A DNA stretch of 64,000 nucleotides from Lachnospiraceae bacterium. Its GTDB lineage: Bacteria > Bacillota > Clostridia > Lachnospirales > Lachnospiraceae. This document shows, in pieces, positions 6,534 through 21,541 of this stretch. Below the pieces are notes generated by a model. The model did not search any database. It was not told the DNA's origin and saw only the letters and a list, made by a program, of their open reading frames with translations. Each line of letters starts with the position of its first letter. Positions within the stretch are counted from its first letter, which is position 1. The position numbers and the translations under genes were made by a program. The stretch lies in the NCBI GenBank assembly GCA_017432565.1, contig JAFRIW010000022.1, positions 1 through 64,000 of the forward strand, read 5' to 3'.

Positions 6534-8702
6534 ATGAAAAAGCTGTTTGGCATCAGGCCGGGCGGACTGAAAAGGAAAATGGCAATCCTTGTGCTGACAA
6601 TCCTGATTGTGACCGTTGCGGTTCTTTCAGTCTTCTCCGAGCTGCGGAGCAGGATCCTGACCCGGATTGTGGGAGAGACCCGGATCGAGCAGACTGCGGC
6701 GATTTCACAGGTCTCCGGGGATACCATGGACGCGATGATGAAGAGCGCGCTCGTCGATTCGATCGAGCTGCAGGCCAACATCGCGGACAATGACTTTACC
6801 GAAATCGTCAACGAGACTTACATGCTGCAGTCCATGGCGCAGGGTGTCATTGAAAACCGGGACAGTCTGGATCCCATGGAGGTTCTGCCGCCGGATCCGG
6901 AAAAGGACGGGGAGCCGTCGGTCATGGTCCTGTGCGAGGCAGGCGTGGACTACAAAAGGTCCAGGTATCTCGGGCTGATGGCGCACCTGGGCACGCCGAT
7001 GCTCGCGATGCTTGCGAATTCCGAGAAGATCGACGCCTGTTATGTCGGCCTCGCGGACGGGACATTTTTCTGCGTGGACGACAGCACGAAGAACCGGTTT
7101 GATGAGAACGGGAAGCTGAAAGCTTTTCCGGTGCGTGAGCGGCCCTGGTACAAAGGCGCGCTGGAGACAGGGCGGCTGTATTTTACGGGAATCGAGACGG
7201 ACGCCTTCAGCGGTGTACAGAGCCTGACCTGCTCTGCACCGATCATCGTGGACGGCAAGACGCTCGGCGTCGTCGGCATTGACATCATACTCGACAATAT
7301 GCGTGATTTTGTCCACTCCGCGTCAGGCGGCGGCAGTTATGCGTTTATTGTCAATCAGGCGGGAGAGGTTCTGCTCGCGCCGCCGGACAACGGCCTGTTT
7401 GAAATCGGACAGGATCTCGGAGCGTCCGAAAATGCGGAAGTGCAGGAATTTGTCCGGGAGGCGCTGGACAGCACGACACGGCTCGCGATTCTCACCCTGG
7501 GCGGAAAACAGTATTATGCGGCCGGCTCGCCCATGCCGACGGTCGGCTGGGCAGCGATTGCTTTGGTCGACAAGGAGATCACGGAGGCGCCGGAGAAGCA
7601 GATGCTGGCGGAATATGACCGGATCAATGAAGACGCGACGGCCGCCTTCCGGGCCAGCTCGGACCGGCTCAAATGGGCGAACCGCCTGGCGATCACACTG
7701 CTGCTGCTCTTCAGCATCGCCGTTGCGCTGCGCGCGGCGGGCAAAATCTCGCGTCCCCTCGAGGAGATGACCGACAATATCATTGACAGCAGCGAAACCG
7801 GAAGATTGTTCGAGATGAAGGACAGTTACCGGACCAATGATGAAATCGAAGTGCTGGCGCTGTCTTTTGACGAGTTGTCGAAGAGGACGAAGCAGTACAT
7901 CGAGGACATCACGCAGATCACAAAGGAAAAGGAGCGGGTCAGCACGGAGCTGAACATGGCAAATCAGATTCAGACCAGCATGCTGCCGCATATTTTCCCT
8001 GCGTTCCCGGACCGGAAGGAATTCGATCTGTATGCCAAAATGGACCCCGCGAGAGAGGTCGGCGGCGATTTCTATGACTTCTTCCTGATCGACGAGGATC
8101 ATCTGTGCATGGTCATGGCGGACGTGAGCGGCAAGGGCATTCCGGCGGCTCTGTTCATGATGATTTCCAAAGTCATCCTGCAGAGCTGCGCCATGCTGGG
8201 ACGGTCTCCTGCCGAAATTCTGGAGAAGACCAACGAGGCGCTGTGCTCCAGCAACCAGGTCGAGATGTTCGTCACGGTCTGGCTGGGAATCCTGGAGATC
8301 TCGACCGGAAAGATCACGGCGGCCAACGCCGGCCACGAATATCCCGCGATGACAAAAGACGGAACCTTCGAGCTGCTCAAGGGCAGACACGGTTTTGTCA
8401 TCGGCGGCCTGGAGGGCGTCGTCTATCACGAGTATGAACTGCAGATGAAGCCGGGCGATAAGCTGTTCCTGTACACCGACGGTGTGCCGGAGGCGACGGA
8501 TGCTCAGAATCAGATGTTCGGCACCGGCCGCATGCTCGAAGCCCTCAACCGGGAGAAGGATGCGGACTCGGAGAAAATCCTGGAGAATGTCCGGGAGGAT
8601 CTCGACAAATTTGTCAGCGGCGCGGAGCAGTTCGACGATCTGACCATGCTCTGCATCGAATACAACGGGGCGGACGTTAATAAGAATCAGACGCAGGAGT
8701 GA
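6534..8702 (+). CDS. Cache-HAMP-SpoIIE/PP2C phosphatase (RsbU-like)
   Basis: This 722-residue membrane phosphatase is predicted to sense an extracellular signal and dephosphorylate a STAS-type anti-anti-sigma factor. TM1 is at about 14-36. An extracytoplasmic dCache-like sensor spans about 40-378 (RERPWYKGAL and GVVGIDI are typical). TM2 is at about 383-403, HAMP at about 405-465, and the PP2C domain at about 490-715, with the metal-binding stretches EVGGDFYDFF and ADVSGKG and the C-terminal EQFDDLTML. The start follows GAAGAGGAG. A methyltransferase gene follows after 10 bases. No STAS or anti-sigma gene is adjacent, so the target lies elsewhere. It resembles the C-terminal half of the second SpoIIE protein at 60248-62620. 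Confidence 0.9.
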   Translation: MKKLFGIRPGGLKRKMAILVLTILIVTVAVLSVFSELRSRILTRIVGETRIEQTAAISQVSGDTMDAMMKSALVDSIELQANIADNDFTEIVNETYMLQSMAQGVIENRDSLDPMEVLPPDPEKDGEPSVMVLCEAGVDYKRSRYLGLMAHLGTPMLAMLANSEKIDACYVGLADGTFFCVDDSTKNRFDENGKLKAFPVRERPWYKGALETGRLYFTGIETDAFSGVQSLTCSAPIIVDGKTLGVVGIDIILDNMRDFVHSASGGGSYAFIVNQAGEVLLAPPDNGLFEIGQDLGASENAEVQEFVREALDSTTRLAILTLGGKQYYAAGSPMPTVGWAAIALVDKEITEAPEKQMLAEYDRINEDATAAFRASSDRLKWANRLAITLLLLFSIAVALRAAGKISRPLEEMTDNIIDSSETGRLFEMKDSYRTNDEIEVLALSFDELSKRTKQYIEDITQITKEKERVSTELNMANQIQTSMLPHIFPAFPDRKEFDLYAKMDPAREVGGDFYDFFLIDEDHLCMVMADVSGKGIPAALFMMISKVILQSCAMLGRSPAEILEKTNEALCSSNQVEMFVTVWLGILEISTGKITAANAGHEYPAMTKDGTFELLKGRHGFVIGGLEGVVYHEYELQMKPGDKLFLYTDGVPEATDAQNQMFGTGRMLEALNREKDADSEKILENVREDLDKFVSGAEQFDDLTMLCIEYNGADVNKNQTQE

Positions 8703-14206: not shown

Positions 14207-14273
14207 ACCACCCGGACCGGGCAGCCCGGTCCCATTAAACAATGAAGAAAGTAAGAACCGGAGAAAGCTTTAC

Positions 14274-15023
14274 ATGAAAAGAAACGGCAGAATCAGAACA
14301 TTCACCTGCAGACTGGCAGTCCTGCTGCTCGCCATGATGCTCGCATTCCTCACAGCCGTCCCGGCTTCCGCAGCCGGAACCTCGACGAAATCCGGCACGC
14401 AGAGCGGTACACAGTCCGGCACGCAGAGCAGCAGCACGAAGTCCGGCACACAGAGCAGCTCGAAGAGCACTTCGAAGAAGGATGAGCGGAAGATTATCAA
14501 GGCGGAAGAGGACGGGAAAACAGTCCTGTATTTCGAGACCGATCCGGACTGGAAGATCCGGTACTCGGAGGAGATCACGGACGAACTGGTCGAAACGGAG
14601 ATGGCGATTTTCTCCGTGTTCCCGATTCAGTTTGTCCGCCACATCCGGAATTGCAGCAAGGGCGTGACGGTCATGGTCCTCGATAAACTTCCGAAGGACG
14701 CTTCGCTGCGGGAGGAGTACTCGATGGCGCCGATAGCCCCGGACCTGACGCTGCATTTTGCCCATAATACGGCCTTCCTGTCCGTGAAGGGCTCCGACAA
14801 GGTGATCTCGCATCATCTCGACGGACTGGAGCCGGAGGCGGAGAAGAAATGGGACGAGGTGCTCAAGCCGGAGACCATCAGGCTGTACCACCGGTATCAG
14901 GATTCGCTGCCGAAATCCGGCGAGGTTTCCGTGGAGGATTCGATTGTAAACTTCCTGAAGAATAACTATCTCTGGCTCTTCCTGAACTGCCCGAATCTGC
15001 TGGCGATTCTGCTGGAAAAGTAA
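14274..15023 (+). CDS. Secreted protein with Ser/Thr/Gln-rich N-terminal repeat
   Basis: This 249-residue protein carries a signal peptide (hydrophobic core about 10-25, cleavage likely after PASA). A low-complexity segment follows, built from SGTQSG and STKSG units, encoded by short imperfect DNA repeats at about 14385-14480. The rest contains no domain I recognise; it ends in a hydrophobic stretch (LWLFLNCPNLLAILL) that could attach it to the membrane. The ATG at 14274 has GGAG upstream; reading from further upstream would overlap the PPK2 gene in another frame and skip the signal peptide. Confidence 0.6.
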   Translation: MKRNGRIRTFTCRLAVLLLAMMLAFLTAVPASAAGTSTKSGTQSGTQSGTQSSSTKSGTQSSSKSTSKKDERKIIKAEEDGKTVLYFETDPDWKIRYSEEITDELVETEMAIFSVFPIQFVRHIRNCSKGVTVMVLDKLPKDASLREEYSMAPIAPDLTLHFAHNTAFLSVKGSDKVISHHLDGLEPEAEKKWDEVLKPETIRLYHRYQDSLPKSGEVSVEDSIVNFLKNNYLWLFLNCPNLLAILLEK

Positions 15024-15095: not shown

Positions 15096-15123
15096 GGCTC
15101 ATTCTGTGGAGGAGTGGTGAGCC
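15096..15123 (+). other. Hairpin immediately 5' of the ribozyme cleavage site
   Basis: GGCTCA at 15096-15101 pairs with TGAGCC at 15118-15123, four bases before the predicted cleavage position. It may form an upstream stem that is separated from the mRNA by self-cleavage. Confidence 0.4.
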
Positions 15124-15126
15124 GTT

Positions 15127-15254
15127 AGCGCCAGGACCATACAGGTTGACGAGGTTGGCAGTGATCGAAAGACTCGGCGGATGCTGCCACGGCCGGTGCG
15201 GGTCGTCAGGAAAGAGGCAAAAAGCAGAATCAAAACTGTAACAAAGCTCTTTCC
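15127..15254 (+). ncRNA. glmS-type self-cleaving ribozyme/riboswitch
   Basis: The region carries the conserved glmS ribozyme core: AGCGCC at 15127-15132, GTTGACGAGG at about 15144-15153 and ATCGAA...CGGCGGATGC at about 15163-15184. The stems are present: P1 ACC/GGT, P2 GGCAG/CTGCC, P3 ACGGCC/GGGTCGT with one G-T pair, and a perfect 8-bp P4 GGAAAGAG (15209-15216) with CTCTTTCC (15247-15254). By analogy with the known class, cleavage would fall between A15127 and G15128 when glucosamine-6-phosphate binds, leaving an unstable downstream mRNA. The gene behind it is not glmS but a transferase-glmM-nagB operon. No convincing promoter box was found upstream. Confidence 0.9.
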
Positions 15255-15294
15255 GCCGCGGATCCATAAAGAAAGTGAGGAAATGAGACGATCA

Positions 15295-15954
15295 ATGTAT
15301 ACCATTACAGATTTATATGATCTCGATCACACACTGGCCGCTGACTACCTGTCCGGTTTTACCTATCCCTGGGAGGCGCTGAAGGGAATCAAGGATCTGA
15401 TCCTGCAGCTGGGATCACAGCTGGGAGACGACTACGAGGAAGTGTCGGAGCATGTCTGGGTGCACAAGACGGCGAAGGTTTTCCCGTCCGCCTATCTGGG
15501 CGCGCCCTGCATCATCGGACCGAACACGGAAGTCCGCCACGGCGCGTTTATCAGAGGTTCGGCGCTGGTCGGTGCTGACTGTGTGGTCGGCAACTCCGTG
15601 GAGCTGAAAAACGTCATTCTTTTTGACCACGTTCAGACTCCGCACTACAACTATGTAGGCGACTCGATTCTGGGATATTACAGTCACATGGGCGCCGGGT
15701 CCATCACCTCCAATGTCAAGTCGGACAAGAAGCTCGTCGTGGTTCACAACGGAACCGAACAGATCGAGACGGGTTTAAAGAAGTTCGGCGCGATGCTGGG
15801 CGATCACGTGGAAGTGGGCTGCAACTCGGTTCTGAATCCCGGGACCGTGATCGGCAGAGACTCCCGCGTCTATCCCACATCCTGCGTCAGAGGGGTGATC
15901 CCGGAGAAACACATTTGGAAGAACGACGGCGTCATGGCCGCCATTAAGGAGTGA
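15295..15954 (+). CDS. Left-handed beta-helix sugar-phosphate acyltransferase-like protein
   Basis: This protein of about 219 residues has a short helical N-terminus followed by a left-handed beta-helix from about residue 55 on, with hexapeptide-type turns (VWVHKTAKVFPSAYLGAPCIIG). SHMGAGSITSN and KFGAMLGDHVEVGCNSVLNPG resemble the acetyltransferase half of GlmU and archaeal sugar-1-phosphate N-acetyltransferases; the uridylyltransferase half is absent. It may acetylate glucosamine-1-phosphate (inferred). The start is uncertain: ATG 15283 is too near the GAGG site and ATG 15295 is 14 bases from it. It is the first gene after the glmS ribozyme, and glmM begins 8 bases after its stop. Confidence 0.75.
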   Translation: MYTITDLYDLDHTLAADYLSGFTYPWEALKGIKDLILQLGSQLGDDYEEVSEHVWVHKTAKVFPSAYLGAPCIIGPNTEVRHGAFIRGSALVGADCVVGNSVELKNVILFDHVQTPHYNYVGDSILGYYSHMGAGSITSNVKSDKKLVVVHNGTEQIETGLKKFGAMLGDHVEVGCNSVLNPGTVIGRDSRVYPTSCVRGVIPEKHIWKNDGVMAAIKE

Positions 15955-15961
15955 ACAGGAC

Positions 15962-17311
15962 ATGGGCAAGTATTTCGGAACAGACGGCTTCCGCGGTGAA
16001 GCCAACGATAACCTGACATTCGACCACGCCGTGAAGATCGGCCGGTTCCTCGGCTGGTATTACGGGGCAAAAGAAGGCAAAAAGGCCAGAATCGTCATCG
16101 GCAAGGACACGCGCCGCTCGTCCTACATGTTTGAGTATGCGCTGTGCACAGGCCTGATGGCCTCCGGCGCAGACGCGTATATCATGCACGTCACGACAAC
16201 TCCTTCTGTCTCCTATATCACGAGGACGGACGGTTTTGACTGCGGCATCATGATTTCCGCGTCCCACAATCCCTACTATGACAACGGCATCAAGCTGATG
16301 AACTACAACGGCGAGAAGATGGACGAAGAGACCATCCTCGAGATCGAGAAGTACATCGACGGAGAGATTCCCGAGCTTCCGCTCGCAAAGAAAGCGGACA
16401 TCGGCCGGACCGTGGACTATGTCGCGGGCCGCAACCGCTACATCGGCTATCTGATTTCGCTGTCCAAGTACAGCTTCAACGGCAAGAAGGTCGGCCTGGA
16501 TGTGGCCAACGGCTCCGCCTGGTCCATTGCGAAGGGTGTCTTCGACGCACTCGGCGCCAAGACCTATGTCATCAACAACGAGCCCGACGGTTTCAACATC
16601 AACACCGACTGCGGCAGCACGCACATCGAGCATCTGCAGAAATTTGTCGTGGAGAACGGCCTGGATGTCGGCTTTGCCTACGACGGCGACGCGGACCGCT
16701 GCCTGTGTGTGGACGAGAAGGGCAACGTGGTCACCGGCGATCACATCATGTACATCTACGGTCTGTACATGAAGGAGAGAGGAAAGCTCATCAACAACAC
16801 GGTCGTCACCACCGTCATGAGCAACTTCGGTCTGTACAAGGCCCTCGACAAGGTGGGCATCGACTATGCCAAGACCAAAGTCGGCGACAAGTATGTCTAT
16901 GAAAACATGGTGAAGTACGGAAACCGCATCGGCGGCGAGCAGTCCGGCCATATCATCTTCACGAAGTATGCGACCACCGGCGACGGCATCATGACCAGCC
17001 TGAAGCTGATGGAGGTCATGCTGGCCAAGGAGAAGCCCATGAGCGAGCTGGCAGCGCCGGTTGTGTTCTATCCGCAGGTGCTGAAGAACGTCCGCGTGCA
17101 CAGCAAACCGGATGCGCAGAACGATCCGGATGTGCAGGCAGCGGTTCAGAAGGTGGCGGACGCACTGGGCGATGACGGCAGAATCCTGGTCAGAGAGTCC
17201 GGAACCGAGCCGGTCATCCGCGTCATGGTGGAAGCCGGAACCGACGAGATCTGCGAGAAGTACGTGGACGAAGTCATTGATGTTATCAGAGCGAAGGGCC
17301 ATATTGTCTGA
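15962..17311 (+). CDS. glmM: Phosphoglucosamine mutase (GlmM-type phosphohexomutase)
   Basis: This 449-residue enzyme interconverts glucosamine-6-phosphate and glucosamine-1-phosphate. It begins with YFGTDGFRG, carries the phosphoserine loop ISASHNP with Ser101, the metal loop DGDADR, the sugar-specificity loop GGEQSGH and the C-terminal phosphate-binding RESGTEP. Length and N-terminus fit GlmM better than phosphoglucomutase or phosphomannomutase, though some family members accept several hexose phosphates. It is the second gene of the ribozyme-controlled operon, so its substrate is also the predicted ribozyme ligand. Since no phosphomannomutase is present in the GDP-sugar operon, it might cover that step as well (inference). 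Confidence 0.85.
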   Translation: MGKYFGTDGFRGEANDNLTFDHAVKIGRFLGWYYGAKEGKKARIVIGKDTRRSSYMFEYALCTGLMASGADAYIMHVTTTPSVSYITRTDGFDCGIMISASHNPYYDNGIKLMNYNGEKMDEETILEIEKYIDGEIPELPLAKKADIGRTVDYVAGRNRYIGYLISLSKYSFNGKKVGLDVANGSAWSIAKGVFDALGAKTYVINNEPDGFNINTDCGSTHIEHLQKFVVENGLDVGFAYDGDADRCLCVDEKGNVVTGDHIMYIYGLYMKERGKLINNTVVTTVMSNFGLYKALDKVGIDYAKTKVGDKYVYENMVKYGNRIGGEQSGHIIFTKYATTGDGIMTSLKLMEVMLAKEKPMSELAAPVVFYPQVLKNVRVHSKPDAQNDPDVQAAVQKVADALGDDGRILVRESGTEPVIRVMVEAGTDEICEKYVDEVIDVIRAKGHIV

Positions 17312-17361: not shown

Positions 17362-18153
17362 ATGAGAGTAGTTATTCAGGACAATTACAGCAAAATGTGT
17401 AAGTGGGCCGCAGATTATATCGCGGCGAAGATCAATGCGCATAAGGAAGACAGACCTTTCGTGCTGGGTCTGCCCACCGGTTCTTCCCCGATCGGCGTCT
17501 ATCAGGAGCTGATTAAGAAGAACAAGGCCGGCGAGGTTTCCTTCGCCAACGTCATCACCTTCAACATGGATGAATATCTGGGCCTGCCCAGAGAGCATGA
17601 CCAGAGCTACTGGTATTTCATGCATGACAACTTCTTCGATCACCTGGTCGATATGAAGCCGGAGAACATCAACATTCTGAACGGCATGACCGATGATCCG
17701 GAGGGAGAGTGCGCGCGCTATGAAGCCAAAATCGCGGCCTGCGGCGGCATCGATCTGTTCATGGGCGGCATCGGCGTAGACGGCCACCTTGCTTTCAACG
17801 AGCCTTACACTTCGCTGTCTTCCAGAACCGGCGTCCGCGACCTGACCACCGACACAAGAATCGTGAATTCCCGTTTCTTCGGAAATGATCCGGAGAAGGT
17901 TCCGGCAAAGGCACTGTCCGTCGGCATCGGCACCGTGACGGATTCCAGAGAAGTCCTGGTCCTGATCAGCGGTCACAACAAGGCCCGCGCACTGGCAGCC
18001 ACCGTCGAGGGCGGCGTCAGCCAGAAGTGGACCTGCAGCGCTCTGCAGCTCCACAACGCAGCCATCATCGCCTGCGACGAGGAAGCCTGCGGCGAGCTCA
18101 CTGTCGACACCTACAAGTACTTCCTGGATATCGAAAAGAAGGAAAGACTGTAA
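17362..18153 (+). CDS. nagB: Glucosamine-6-phosphate deaminase/isomerase
   Basis: This 263-residue enzyme catalyses the reversible conversion of glucosamine-6-phosphate to fructose-6-phosphate and ammonia. The sugar-phosphate loop LGLPTGSSP, Asp70/Glu71 (NMDEYLGL), and the catalytic Asp140-x-His142 with Glu147 (GIGVDGHLAFNEP) all line up with the known active site of E. coli NagB (Asp72, Asp141, His143, Glu148). Length is normal. AAGGAG lies about nine bases before the start. It is the last gene behind the glmS ribozyme and ends in a strong terminator. Being repressed by its own sugar-phosphate suggests a role in making rather than degrading glucosamine-6-phosphate. Confidence 0.9.
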   Translation: MRVVIQDNYSKMCKWAADYIAAKINAHKEDRPFVLGLPTGSSPIGVYQELIKKNKAGEVSFANVITFNMDEYLGLPREHDQSYWYFMHDNFFDHLVDMKPENINILNGMTDDPEGECARYEAKIAACGGIDLFMGGIGVDGHLAFNEPYTSLSSRTGVRDLTTDTRIVNSRFFGNDPEKVPAKALSVGIGTVTDSREVLVLISGHNKARALAATVEGGVSQKWTCSALQLHNAAIIACDEEACGELTVDTYKYFLDIEKKERL

Positions 18154-18201: not shown

Positions 18202-18237
18202 CGGTCTGCCTGCGCGTGAGCACGGGCAGGCCGTTTT
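18202..18237 (+). terminator. Intrinsic terminator of the ribozyme operon
   Basis: CGGTCTGCCTG at 18202-18212 pairs with CGGGCAGGCCG at 18223-18233 with two G-T pairs, followed by TTTT at 18234-18237. A second small palindrome, CCGGTCTGAGACCGG, lies just upstream at 18181-18195. Confidence 0.8.
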
Positions 18238-18292
18238 GGTATCGGCAGCTGCTCCCGGCCGCTGTGAACTGCAGGAGAGCGGAGGAGGGAAA

Positions 18293-21200
18293 ATGGGGTA
18301 TTCGGAGAACTCGATCAGCAATACGTTCAGTAAGATCAGTACTGATGAGGAGATGTCCATATTCCGGGCAAGCCTCGAAGATGCCGCAAAGCGCCTTGCA
18401 GACGGCGCGGGGCAGGGATCGATCTCCAATGAGGAGATCGGGAAGAACGACATGCTGCTGGAAACCTACAGGGTTGCGTCCGATGCCATACACGGAGGCA
18501 TGGGCAGCGTCTGGCAGGTGCGGCACACCGGGTGGGGCGTGGACCTTGCGATGAAGCGTCCGCAGCCGAGGTTTTTCGCGGAGGGCAGCCGGGAGAGGAG
18601 GGAAAACTTCATCGCCGAGTGCGAGCACTGGATCGATCTCGGCCTTCACCCGAACATCGTCTCCTGTTACTACGTCCGTGAGATCGGCGGCGTCCCGACG
18701 ATCTTCTCGGAGTGGATGGACGGCGGCAGCCTGAAGGACCGGATCCGGGACGGCTCACTCTATACCGGAACGGAACAGGAGGTGCGGGAGAGAATTCTGG
18801 ATATCGCGATCCAGGCAGCGAGAGGGCTGCGCTATTCTCATGAACAGAAGCTGCTCCATCAGGATATGAAGCCCGGAAATCTGCTGCTCACGAAGGACTG
18901 GGAGGCCAAGATCGCAGACTTCGGCCTCGCAAAGGCACAGCAGCAGCTGGAGGACCGGGGCCGGGCCCTTTCTTCGGGAGGCACAGCCGCGTACAGCCCG
19001 CGGGAACAGCTGGAAGGGGCTCCCGCCGCGCGATGGATGGACGTCTATGCCTGGGCGCTGACGGTCCTGAGAATGTATGCGGGAGAGCAGCTGTGGGAGA
19101 CCGGCGGCGAGGCGCGGGGGCGCTTTGCGGAGACAGCGGACCGGTGCCGCATCCCGCTTTCCTGCCGGATGCGGCAGCTGCTCGCGGCCTGTCTCACGGA
19201 GCGCCCGGACGGCTTTGACGGGATCTGCGGGACGCTTTCAGTGATCTGGCAGGAGGAGACGGGAGCCGCATATCCGCGCCCGGAGCCGGACCACTATATT
19301 TCCCCGGCGGATATTCTCAACAACCGCGCGCTCTCCTATCTCGATCTCGGAAAACCGGAGGAAGCAGAGAAACAGTGGGCGCAGGCGCTGGCCGCCAACA
19401 GGCATCACCCCGAATCCGTCTACAACCGCTCGCTCTGGCGCTGGCGGGAAGGTCTGATCAGCGATCTTGAGGCTCATGACGAGATCCTCATCCGGTGCAG
19501 GGTCAACAGAAGATCGGAGCAGTTCAGGACGGAAATCCTGAAGGAAGCCGGTCCGTACGGATATCCCGCCGGTGTCAGTACCTTTGAAAACGCCGTAAAG
19601 GTCCGGTATTTTGTCAAAACAGCAGACGCCGGGCTGGAGAATGTCCGCAGTGCCCGCTCCCACAACGGTCTGTATGAGGTGGATGAGGACAGGAATAACC
19701 GGTGGTTCGCGGCCGTCCGGGAGGGCAGCCGGATCCGCAAGACATTTTACGTGGGCGGAGCGATCTCACATGTGTCCTTCTCGGAGGACGACCGCTTCCT
19801 GACGATCCTCAGCAAAGATTCCAACGGACCGGCAGAGCTGGAGACGGTGCAGGTCGGCCCGTTTACCTATCAGGCGCCGTGGGCGCTGAACCGGGTGATC
19901 TCCGCGGAGCAGATACTTGAGAACCGGGATAACTATGAGTCGTGGATGCGCATGGCAGAGGAGCAGGCCGCCGCAGGCAGCGCAGAGGAAGCGATCGGGC
20001 TGCTGGAGCGGATCATGGAAATACCCGGTTACGAATTCGATCAGAAAGCTGCTGCATTTTACAGAACCCTGCTGGAGAAGGCGGATGCGGTCGGCCTGAA
20101 GGACGCACAGAAAGCATTTTCCGTACAGGCACAGGAGGGAGGCTTTGCCGTGATGGCGGAGGCAGGCAGCTTCTTCTGCCTGGTGCTCCGGGAGCACATT
20201 TTCGTCTATGATTACGCCGGCGCTCTGATCAGGGTTATCGATACACAGTGCGGCGCGAAGCCGCAGTCTGCCGCGGTCTCGCCGGACGGCCGCTTTCTGC
20301 TGGCCGGGTTCCTGGAAGAAACGGAAACGCCGGACCCCCGCAGCCGCAGCTGCAGCGGTTTTCTGTGCGCCTATGATCTGGAGCAGGGCGTGCTGACAAG
20401 AAAAATTCCGATGAAGAATTTCCCGGCGTTTTTTGCGTTTCACCCGTCAAAGCCGTACGCCGCAGTCAGCTGTTTCCTGGGGGATGTCGGGATCTACACC
20501 TGTCCGGAGTGCCGCCATGTCCGGGATCTGAAGACCGGGAAGATGAGGCGCTATGCCAGGGTCAGCTGGTCGCCTGACGGGACGACACTGTTCGTGCCGA
20601 ACACCGCGGAGAACGATCTCTGGGCTGTCACAAACAGCCTGAGCCTTCTGCACAGGTCAAAGCGCGTGGTGCCGCACAAAAATAATTCTCTGCTTACGAG
20701 CGAAGTCTCCGCGGACGGGACGCTGTACCTGCGCGGGAACGAGGGGCACCACCTGATTGAGTGCATCGATGTCCTGACAGGGGAGCCCCGGGCGGAGCTG
20801 TATTTTGACAACGGGGCTGTCAGCGCGTTCAGCATCTCCCCGGACAGCCGGTTCATCGCGGTCGGGACCGACGAGGGGAAGCTGGTGTTCCGCAGCACCC
20901 GGAGTCTGAAGCAGGAGGCTTTTTCCGTTTACATGGAGGATAACAGAAGCATCAACGCTGTCAGATGGCGCCCGGATGCGCAGATGATCCTTGTCAAGGC
21001 ACATGTCAGGGGCGCGTACGACACCGACCGGGACATCGTGACCGGCTATCTTCCGGAGTGGCAGTACAGCGCCGGGACGGAGAAAAACCGCCAGTATTTT
21101 GAAGAGCACTGGGACCCGGGAGAGAGGAGCGAACCGGAGGATCTCGCGAAGAAGTACTGGGGAATCTATGAGCATTTCTGTCCGGAGGCGCAGGAGATGG

Positions 21201-21541
21201 CGCTGGAGCACGAGTTCTCCTGTGAGCCGGGCCGCTCCGACCGGGGCGATGAGATCGTGACGGTTCGTCTGGACGGCTCCGAACAGGTCTGTCACATCAG
21301 TCACAAAGAGACGCCGGGGGACACGGATGCCGCTGATTTTGCCCGGTTTGTCCGGAGCATAAAGGACGGGGACGACGCCGGGTTTTTCTGGGAAGATCCC
21401 CGGGGCGGCTATGGGAGATATGAATGGACCTTCTCCCGGAGAGGTGATCTGCTGCTGGTCCTGACGCCGATGGCATATCATGCCTTTTTCCGCTATGATG
21501 AATTCACGGCCGGGATCAGGATTTCTGATTGTACACGATGA
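18293..21541 (+). CDS. Hanks-type Ser/Thr kinase with TPR and beta-propeller-like C-terminus
   Basis: This 1082-residue soluble protein has an N-terminal eukaryotic-like kinase domain at about residues 55-330. It shows a glycine loop (GGMGSVW, 68-74), Lys88, catalytic loop HQDMKPGN with Asp191 and Lys193, and DFG with Asp209. Gln190 replaces the usual Arg of HRD, so it is a non-RD kinase. TPR-like helices follow at about 340-400. The remaining 650 residues hold repeated beta-strand units of WD40 type (AAVSPDGRFLLAG, RVSWSPDG, FSISPDSRFIAVG), broken by a second helical segment near 550-600. No membrane segment is seen, unlike PASTA kinases. The ATG at 18293 follows GGAGGAGGG. Targets are unknown. 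Confidence 0.85.
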   Translation: MGYSENSISNTFSKISTDEEMSIFRASLEDAAKRLADGAGQGSISNEEIGKNDMLLETYRVASDAIHGGMGSVWQVRHTGWGVDLAMKRPQPRFFAEGSRERRENFIAECEHWIDLGLHPNIVSCYYVREIGGVPTIFSEWMDGGSLKDRIRDGSLYTGTEQEVRERILDIAIQAARGLRYSHEQKLLHQDMKPGNLLLTKDWEAKIADFGLAKAQQQLEDRGRALSSGGTAAYSPREQLEGAPAARWMDVYAWALTVLRMYAGEQLWETGGEARGRFAETADRCRIPLSCRMRQLLAACLTERPDGFDGICGTLSVIWQEETGAAYPRPEPDHYISPADILNNRALSYLDLGKPEEAEKQWAQALAANRHHPESVYNRSLWRWREGLISDLEAHDEILIRCRVNRRSEQFRTEILKEAGPYGYPAGVSTFENAVKVRYFVKTADAGLENVRSARSHNGLYEVDEDRNNRWFAAVREGSRIRKTFYVGGAISHVSFSEDDRFLTILSKDSNGPAELETVQVGPFTYQAPWALNRVISAEQILENRDNYESWMRMAEEQAAAGSAEEAIGLLERIMEIPGYEFDQKAAAFYRTLLEKADAVGLKDAQKAFSVQAQEGGFAVMAEAGSFFCLVLREHIFVYDYAGALIRVIDTQCGAKPQSAAVSPDGRFLLAGFLEETETPDPRSRSCSGFLCAYDLEQGVLTRKIPMKNFPAFFAFHPSKPYAAVSCFLGDVGIYTCPECRHVRDLKTGKMRRYARVSWSPDGTTLFVPNTAENDLWAVTNSLSLLHRSKRVVPHKNNSLLTSEVSADGTLYLRGNEGHHLIECIDVLTGEPRAELYFDNGAVSAFSISPDSRFIAVGTDEGKLVFRSTRSLKQEAFSVYMEDNRSINAVRWRPDAQMILVKAHVRGAYDTDRDIVTGYLPEWQYSAGTEKNRQYFEEHWDPGERSEPEDLAKKYWGIYEHFCPEAQEMALEHEFSCEPGRSDRGDEIVTVRLDGSEQVCHISHKETPGDTDAADFARFVRSIKDGDDAGFFWEDPRGGYGRYEWTFSRRGDLLLVLTPMAYHAFFRYDEFTAGIRISDCTR

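Follow-up and report, generated by a model that had tools for sequence, protein, structure and literature searches.

A glmS ribozyme at the head of a nagB operon, apart from glmS, in Lachnospiraceae and other gut Bacillota

We report a glmS ribozyme that stands not before glmS but at the head of an operon encoding a left-handed beta-helix (LbH) sugar-1-phosphate acetyltransferase, the phosphoglucosamine mutase GlmM and the glucosamine-6-phosphate (GlcN6P) deaminase/isomerase NagB. It lies in a 64,000-nucleotide stretch of the genome of a rumen-type Lachnospiraceae bacterium (the window; assembly GCA_017432565.1, contig JAFRIW010000022.1, positions 1-64,000, forward strand). The reading that we favour, with a probability of roughly 70%, is that this RNA controls a UDP-GlcNAc synthesis operon, turning it off with GlcN6P, and that NagB acts in the operon as the supplier of this metabolite. 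The glmS ribozyme is a textbook one-gene regulon as well as a proposed antibacterial target, and McCown et al. 2011 reportedly found all but two of 463 glmS ribozymes in glmS mRNAs. Descriptions of the class tie it to glmS (PMC2258182; PMC11477304), and in the literature searched, outside which McCown et al. 2011/2012 lie, no paper was found to place such a ribozyme before nagB. The RNA belongs to a known class and may act in the known way; it is the target that is unusual.

A search of the window against Rfam with Infernal matched RF00234 at 15116-15264 on the + strand with 62.1 bits (E 6.9e-12), compared with a gathering score of 37 bits. The match is untruncated, spanning all 167 model positions (1-167/167), and is the only one genome-wide (2.88 Mb in 64 contigs, 96.65% complete). 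The covariance model thus bears out the original prediction, which had recognized the conserved core and main stems of a glmS ribozyme within 15127-15254; that interval begins at the cleavage-site A but falls short of the full match at both ends. The predicted self-cleavage site lies between A(-1) at 15127 and G(+1) at 15128, placed by the position of AGCGCC in the sequence and the RF00234 alignment, by analogy with the known class. The P1 helix (15135-15138 with 15144-15147) is paired in 91% of cells and carries compensatory changes in an alignment of 29 sequences, the window ribozyme plus 28 other ribozyme cores. The P2 helix, identified from the covariance match and the alignment (15156-15161 with 15184-15189), encloses P2a and is 100% paired, with double changes in 5 of its 6 pairs, and P2a itself is invariant. 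No variation was found among the 29 sequences in the core motifs AGCGCC, GACGAGG, ATCGA and TCGGCGG. Taking P1 and P2 together, 97.5% of cells are paired and 49 are double-changed, compared with a mean of 10.8 after shuffling (0 of 500 shuffles reach 49) and at most 11 in slid controls. These data confirm the RNA as a genuine glmS ribozyme. It shares class, core, stems and leader position with the ribozymes of Bacillus subtilis and Clostridioides difficile, and differs from them in preceding LbH-glmM-nagB, whereas those precede glmS.

All three genes behind the ribozyme lie on the + strand and were assigned by family matches, which agrees with the beta-helix transferase, glmM and nagB first read from the sequence. 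The LbH gene (15283-15954, with a start ATG at 15283 or 15295) encodes a stand-alone protein of about 220 aa that resembles the C-terminal half of GlmU without the uridyltransferase domain. Its best NCBIfam match is Arch_glmU, at 145 bits and under the cut-off of 292, and its closest solved structures by sequence match are Sulfolobus dual sugar-1-phosphate nucleotidylyltransferase entries. With GlmU-type acetyltransferase halves (TIGR03992; Sulfolobus ST0452, 5z09) it has in common the LbH repeat family and 4 of the 5 ST0452 residues compared: H308, Y311, N331 and K337 are kept and K340 is replaced by V, these five being what we take to be the catalytic set. It is followed by glmM (15962-17311; TIGR01455, 541 bits, cut-off 448) and by nagB (17362-18153; TIGR00502, 370 bits, cut-off 237), of the E. 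coli-like long form with an altered GlcNAc6P-site loop. The intergenic gaps are 7 and 50 bases, a spacing from which we infer one transcript. A promoter scan of the leader returned nothing convincing on the + strand. A possible terminator after nagB (18206-18239, +), read from the sequence as CTGCCTG...CGGGCAG followed by GCCGTTTTGG, is graded weak because the scan did not report that site. Of the neighbouring genes, the one at 14271-15023, upstream of the ribozyme, encodes a protein of 250 aa whose beginning resembles a signal peptide; it has no convincing family match and is 65% conserved in the nearest relative. The gene at 18294-21541, on the same strand after the operon, encodes a large protein that combines a Ser/Thr kinase domain with beta-propeller-like repeats.

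The genome yielded no full-length GlmU: the bifunctional GlmU model TIGR01173 matches an acetyltransferase part only (50 bits), and among the genome's proteins LbH comes closest to the acetyltransferase half of GlmU. For these two reasons the operon looks like one for UDP-GlcNAc synthesis, a description that fits better than the 'amino-sugar interconversion' originally proposed, which was right in part.

The genome's glmS lies on a different contig (G000:C18:101613-103472, 749 bits) and starts 8 bp past the stop of an ORF on the same strand, at least 345 codons long, so that a leader would not fit between the two. Rfam searches at this locus and at 19 glmS loci of genomes with LbH operons (20 loci) found no ribozyme, and a clade-specific model likewise found none at 47 separate glmS loci, drawn from same-genus genomes and from those with LbH operons; its best score there was 12.1 bits (E 0.87). 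A second, diverged ribozyme before glmS is ruled out by both models. The claim that the ribozyme heads an operon without glmS was therefore correct, its first genes being LbH, glmM and nagB and glmS lying elsewhere without a ribozyme. The further claim, that this extends the regulon, does not hold for a regulon that still includes glmS: with its sole ribozyme before the nagB operon and none before glmS, the genome shows ribozyme control shifted from glmS to the nagB operon. Full glmS genes are kept in most operon-bearing genomes (33/36, and 11/12 further ones; 13/17 in the genus), so NagB is no obligate replacement for GlmS, and its role as a simple substitute was rejected. Eight of the 24 same-genus genomes without the ribozyme also have no glmS; the absence of glmS from G017 and G404 may reflect incompleteness.

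The ribozyme-nagB operon is no one-off and recurs in several families. Within the genus the ribozyme was found in 17 of 41 genomes, in every case heading a cluster in which the order of nagB, glmM and/or LbH varies; nine of these relatives have glmS farther downstream within the cluster, directly after nagB in five and about 2.7 kb past glmM in four. Of 59 ribozymes at the family level, 49 are followed by glmS and 10 by nagB/LbH/glmM clusters; of 79 in a class-wide sample, 74 are followed by glmS, 2 by LbH/nagB/glmM clusters without glmS and 3 by neither. Among the best 80 LbH relatives, mostly from ruminant gut metagenomes as judged by their titles, the ribozyme is present at 53 loci, 52 of which also have nagB, and the ribozyme-bearing loci belong to Lachnospiraceae, Oscillospiraceae and Acidaminococcaceae. 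This recurrence bears on the practically negligible chance that glmS truly follows the ribozyme and was misassembled or misbinned in a draft genome of 64 contigs. The ribozyme and operon lie mid-contig, glmS has its own contiguous context, and the same arrangement is present in an isolate, Succiniclasticum ruminis DSM 9236, as well as in dozens of assemblies made independently; misassembly was rejected on the recurrence in an isolate and in multiple assemblies.

Other ribozyme contexts were also seen in the class. For three class-level ribozymes, L238, L275 and L286, the first 5 kb or so downstream contains no glmS and no nagB, LbH or glmM; they score 70-89 bits with RF00234 and 44-57 bits with the core model. 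One contig (L262; G218:C39) carries two ribozymes, one before a glmS-like ORF without the N-terminal domain and the other before a full glmS.

The LbH acetyltransferase is 85-91% identical among Lachnospiraceae, Oscillospiraceae and Acidaminococcaceae (loci L070-L149), and a quick tree of NagB intermixes families. Together, these two features suggest that the cluster may have spread horizontally among gut Bacillota.

The gene orders of these loci, whose counts are not phylogenetically independent, place nagB where glmS would stand. The commonest order is ribozyme-nagB-LbH-glmM (28 of the 53 ribozyme-bearing LbH loci), which parallels the ribozyme-glmS-LbH-glmM order of L129 and L284, so that nagB sits in the glmS slot. 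The existence of that second order would also fit a ribozyme left behind as a non-functional passenger when an ancestral ribozyme-glmS-LbH-glmM operon lost its glmS; we consider this very improbable, as the core is invariant, P1 and P2 show compensatory changes across families and the RNA has been kept through many changes of gene order. No ribozyme was found upstream of six LbH-glmM clusters that lack both nagB and glmS; the upstream DNA covers more than 1 kb in four of them and only 200-305 bp in two. The ribozyme thus tends to track the GlcN6P-forming step, with L229 as an exception, where it heads LbH-glmM and neither nagB nor glmS occurs in the 5 kb read. In Butyrivibrio, neither a glmS ribozyme nor any other Rfam riboswitch was found ahead of five nagB-LbH-glmM-glmS operons (L096, L107, L124, L128 and L139). 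Both the Butyrivibrio operons, of the same make-up without the RNA, and L229 count against the favoured reading.

At two loci where glmS precedes the ribozyme (L079, about 7700-7775, and L147, about 7700-7785), a strong promoter-like site (TTGCAA-17-TATAAT) lies between them and leads directly into a hairpin and T run that resemble a terminator. These elements suggest that glmS forms a unit apart from the ribozyme operon, and the intergenic element might perhaps serve attenuation.

The operon NagB, a long form like that of E. coli, matches a solved GlcN6P deaminase at E 1.9e-97, and the catalytic D, D, H and E are conserved in all 94 operon NagBs. The two aspartates presumably correspond to D72 and D141, the remaining catalytic residues in E. 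coli NagB numbering. H143 and E148 are catalytic in the same numbering (PMC4008608). The activator loop is SRTRIKTLT in the five solved enzymes aligned; in all 94 operon NagBs it is SRTG(V/L/I)R(x)LT, with Gly at the Arg158 position. Compared with the allosteric hexamer of E. coli, the window protein keeps the long form and the catalytic residues but has SRTGVRDLT in the loop, with G-V-R-D at R158-x-K160-T161, and so departs from the E. coli-type GlcNAc6P-activated pattern; Arg158 and Thr161 we take to be further allosteric-site residues of that loop. Lys160 is an allosteric-site residue of E. coli NagB (PMC4008608). The altered loop would point at most to changed regulation, not to the direction of the reaction. 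The gene's setting differs too, among biosynthetic genes and not with nagA. NagBs of the same genus without the ribozyme form a separate group in a quick tree, 37-42% identical to the operon enzymes, and several of their genes adjoin nagA (for example in G027, G034, G039 and G040). The window nagB is the sole nagB found in its genome, where nagA is on contig 8.

The usual direction of NagB is deamination, and the enzyme could be an ordinary catabolic deaminase that is merely co-transcribed, the ribozyme mattering for the other two genes or keeping the deaminase low. The family assignment, the catalytic residues of a GlcN6P deaminase and the single nagB copy speak for this explanation, which we nevertheless judge decidedly unlikely: being turned off by GlcN6P is the wrong sign of control for a catabolic enzyme, the adjoining genes are biosynthetic, the activator loop is altered in 94/94 and several nagA-linked nagBs of the genus fall in the other, ribozyme-less group. 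A somewhat better, though still rather unlikely, account is that NagB works as a reversible valve set by the supply of ammonia and sugar, the ribozyme merely capping the whole pathway at high GlcN6P. The NagB reaction does run both ways (equilibrium constant near 0.2 M; PMC11593775), glmS is also present and the genome has nagA with its single nagB; however, switching the enzyme off at high substrate would slow the removal of GlcN6P, which makes for poor homeostasis unless the net flux runs toward GlcN6P.

In the favoured reading, GlcN6P that accumulates would act as the cofactor of the ribozyme, the leader would be cut at A15127|G15128, and the downstream mRNA with its 5'-OH would be degraded by RNase J, so that LbH, GlmM and NagB would all be lowered and the operon turned off. 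Collins et al. 2007 are said to have found that RNase J degrades the cleaved mRNA in B. subtilis, and an RNase J gene is present in this genome (610 bits). GlcN6P-dependent self-cleavage followed by mRNA decay is the established behaviour of the class (PMC10043782; PMC11477304), from which we infer cleavage and the off direction here. NagB, in the position of GlmS, would connect Fru6P with GlcN6P under ribozyme control and would most likely form GlcN6P from Fru6P and ammonia, while the distant glmS would provide a glutamine-dependent route outside ribozyme control. Repressing the consumers GlmM and LbH would be homeostatic only if the supplier were repressed as well, and NagB is the sole candidate for this role in the operon. 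That NagB runs toward GlcN6P is favoured by this logic, by its place in the glmS slot and by the altered activator loop.

For the direction itself we would give about even odds, in view of an Akkermansia counter-example and of the glmS kept in most genomes. Ammonia is abundant in the rumen. The GlmNagB of Giardia lamblia, also of the NagB family, makes GlcN6P efficiently from Fru6P and ammonia and is unaffected by GlcNAc6P (PMC4281351); it is a eukaryotic, encystment-induced enzyme with no ribozyme, and for the window NagB an anabolic use is putative. The Akkermansia NagB does not form GlcN6P at physiological concentrations (PMC5902328). As the single nagB of its genome, with nagA elsewhere, the operon enzyme may also serve GlcNAc catabolism, which again counts against the favoured reading. 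A bolder version, in which a horizontally spread rumen operon has its ribozyme regulate an anabolic, GlcNAc6P-insensitive NagB that uses ammonia, GlmS being a second, uncontrolled route, is tentative and has slightly less than an even chance of being right.

A ribozyme that has left glmS and heads nagB-LbH-glmM indicates that control can shift between enzymes of one pathway. The arrangement makes ammonia-dependent GlcN6P synthesis by a bacterial NagB a testable idea, and GlcN6P mimics that activate the ribozyme would hit other enzymes in these gut bacteria.
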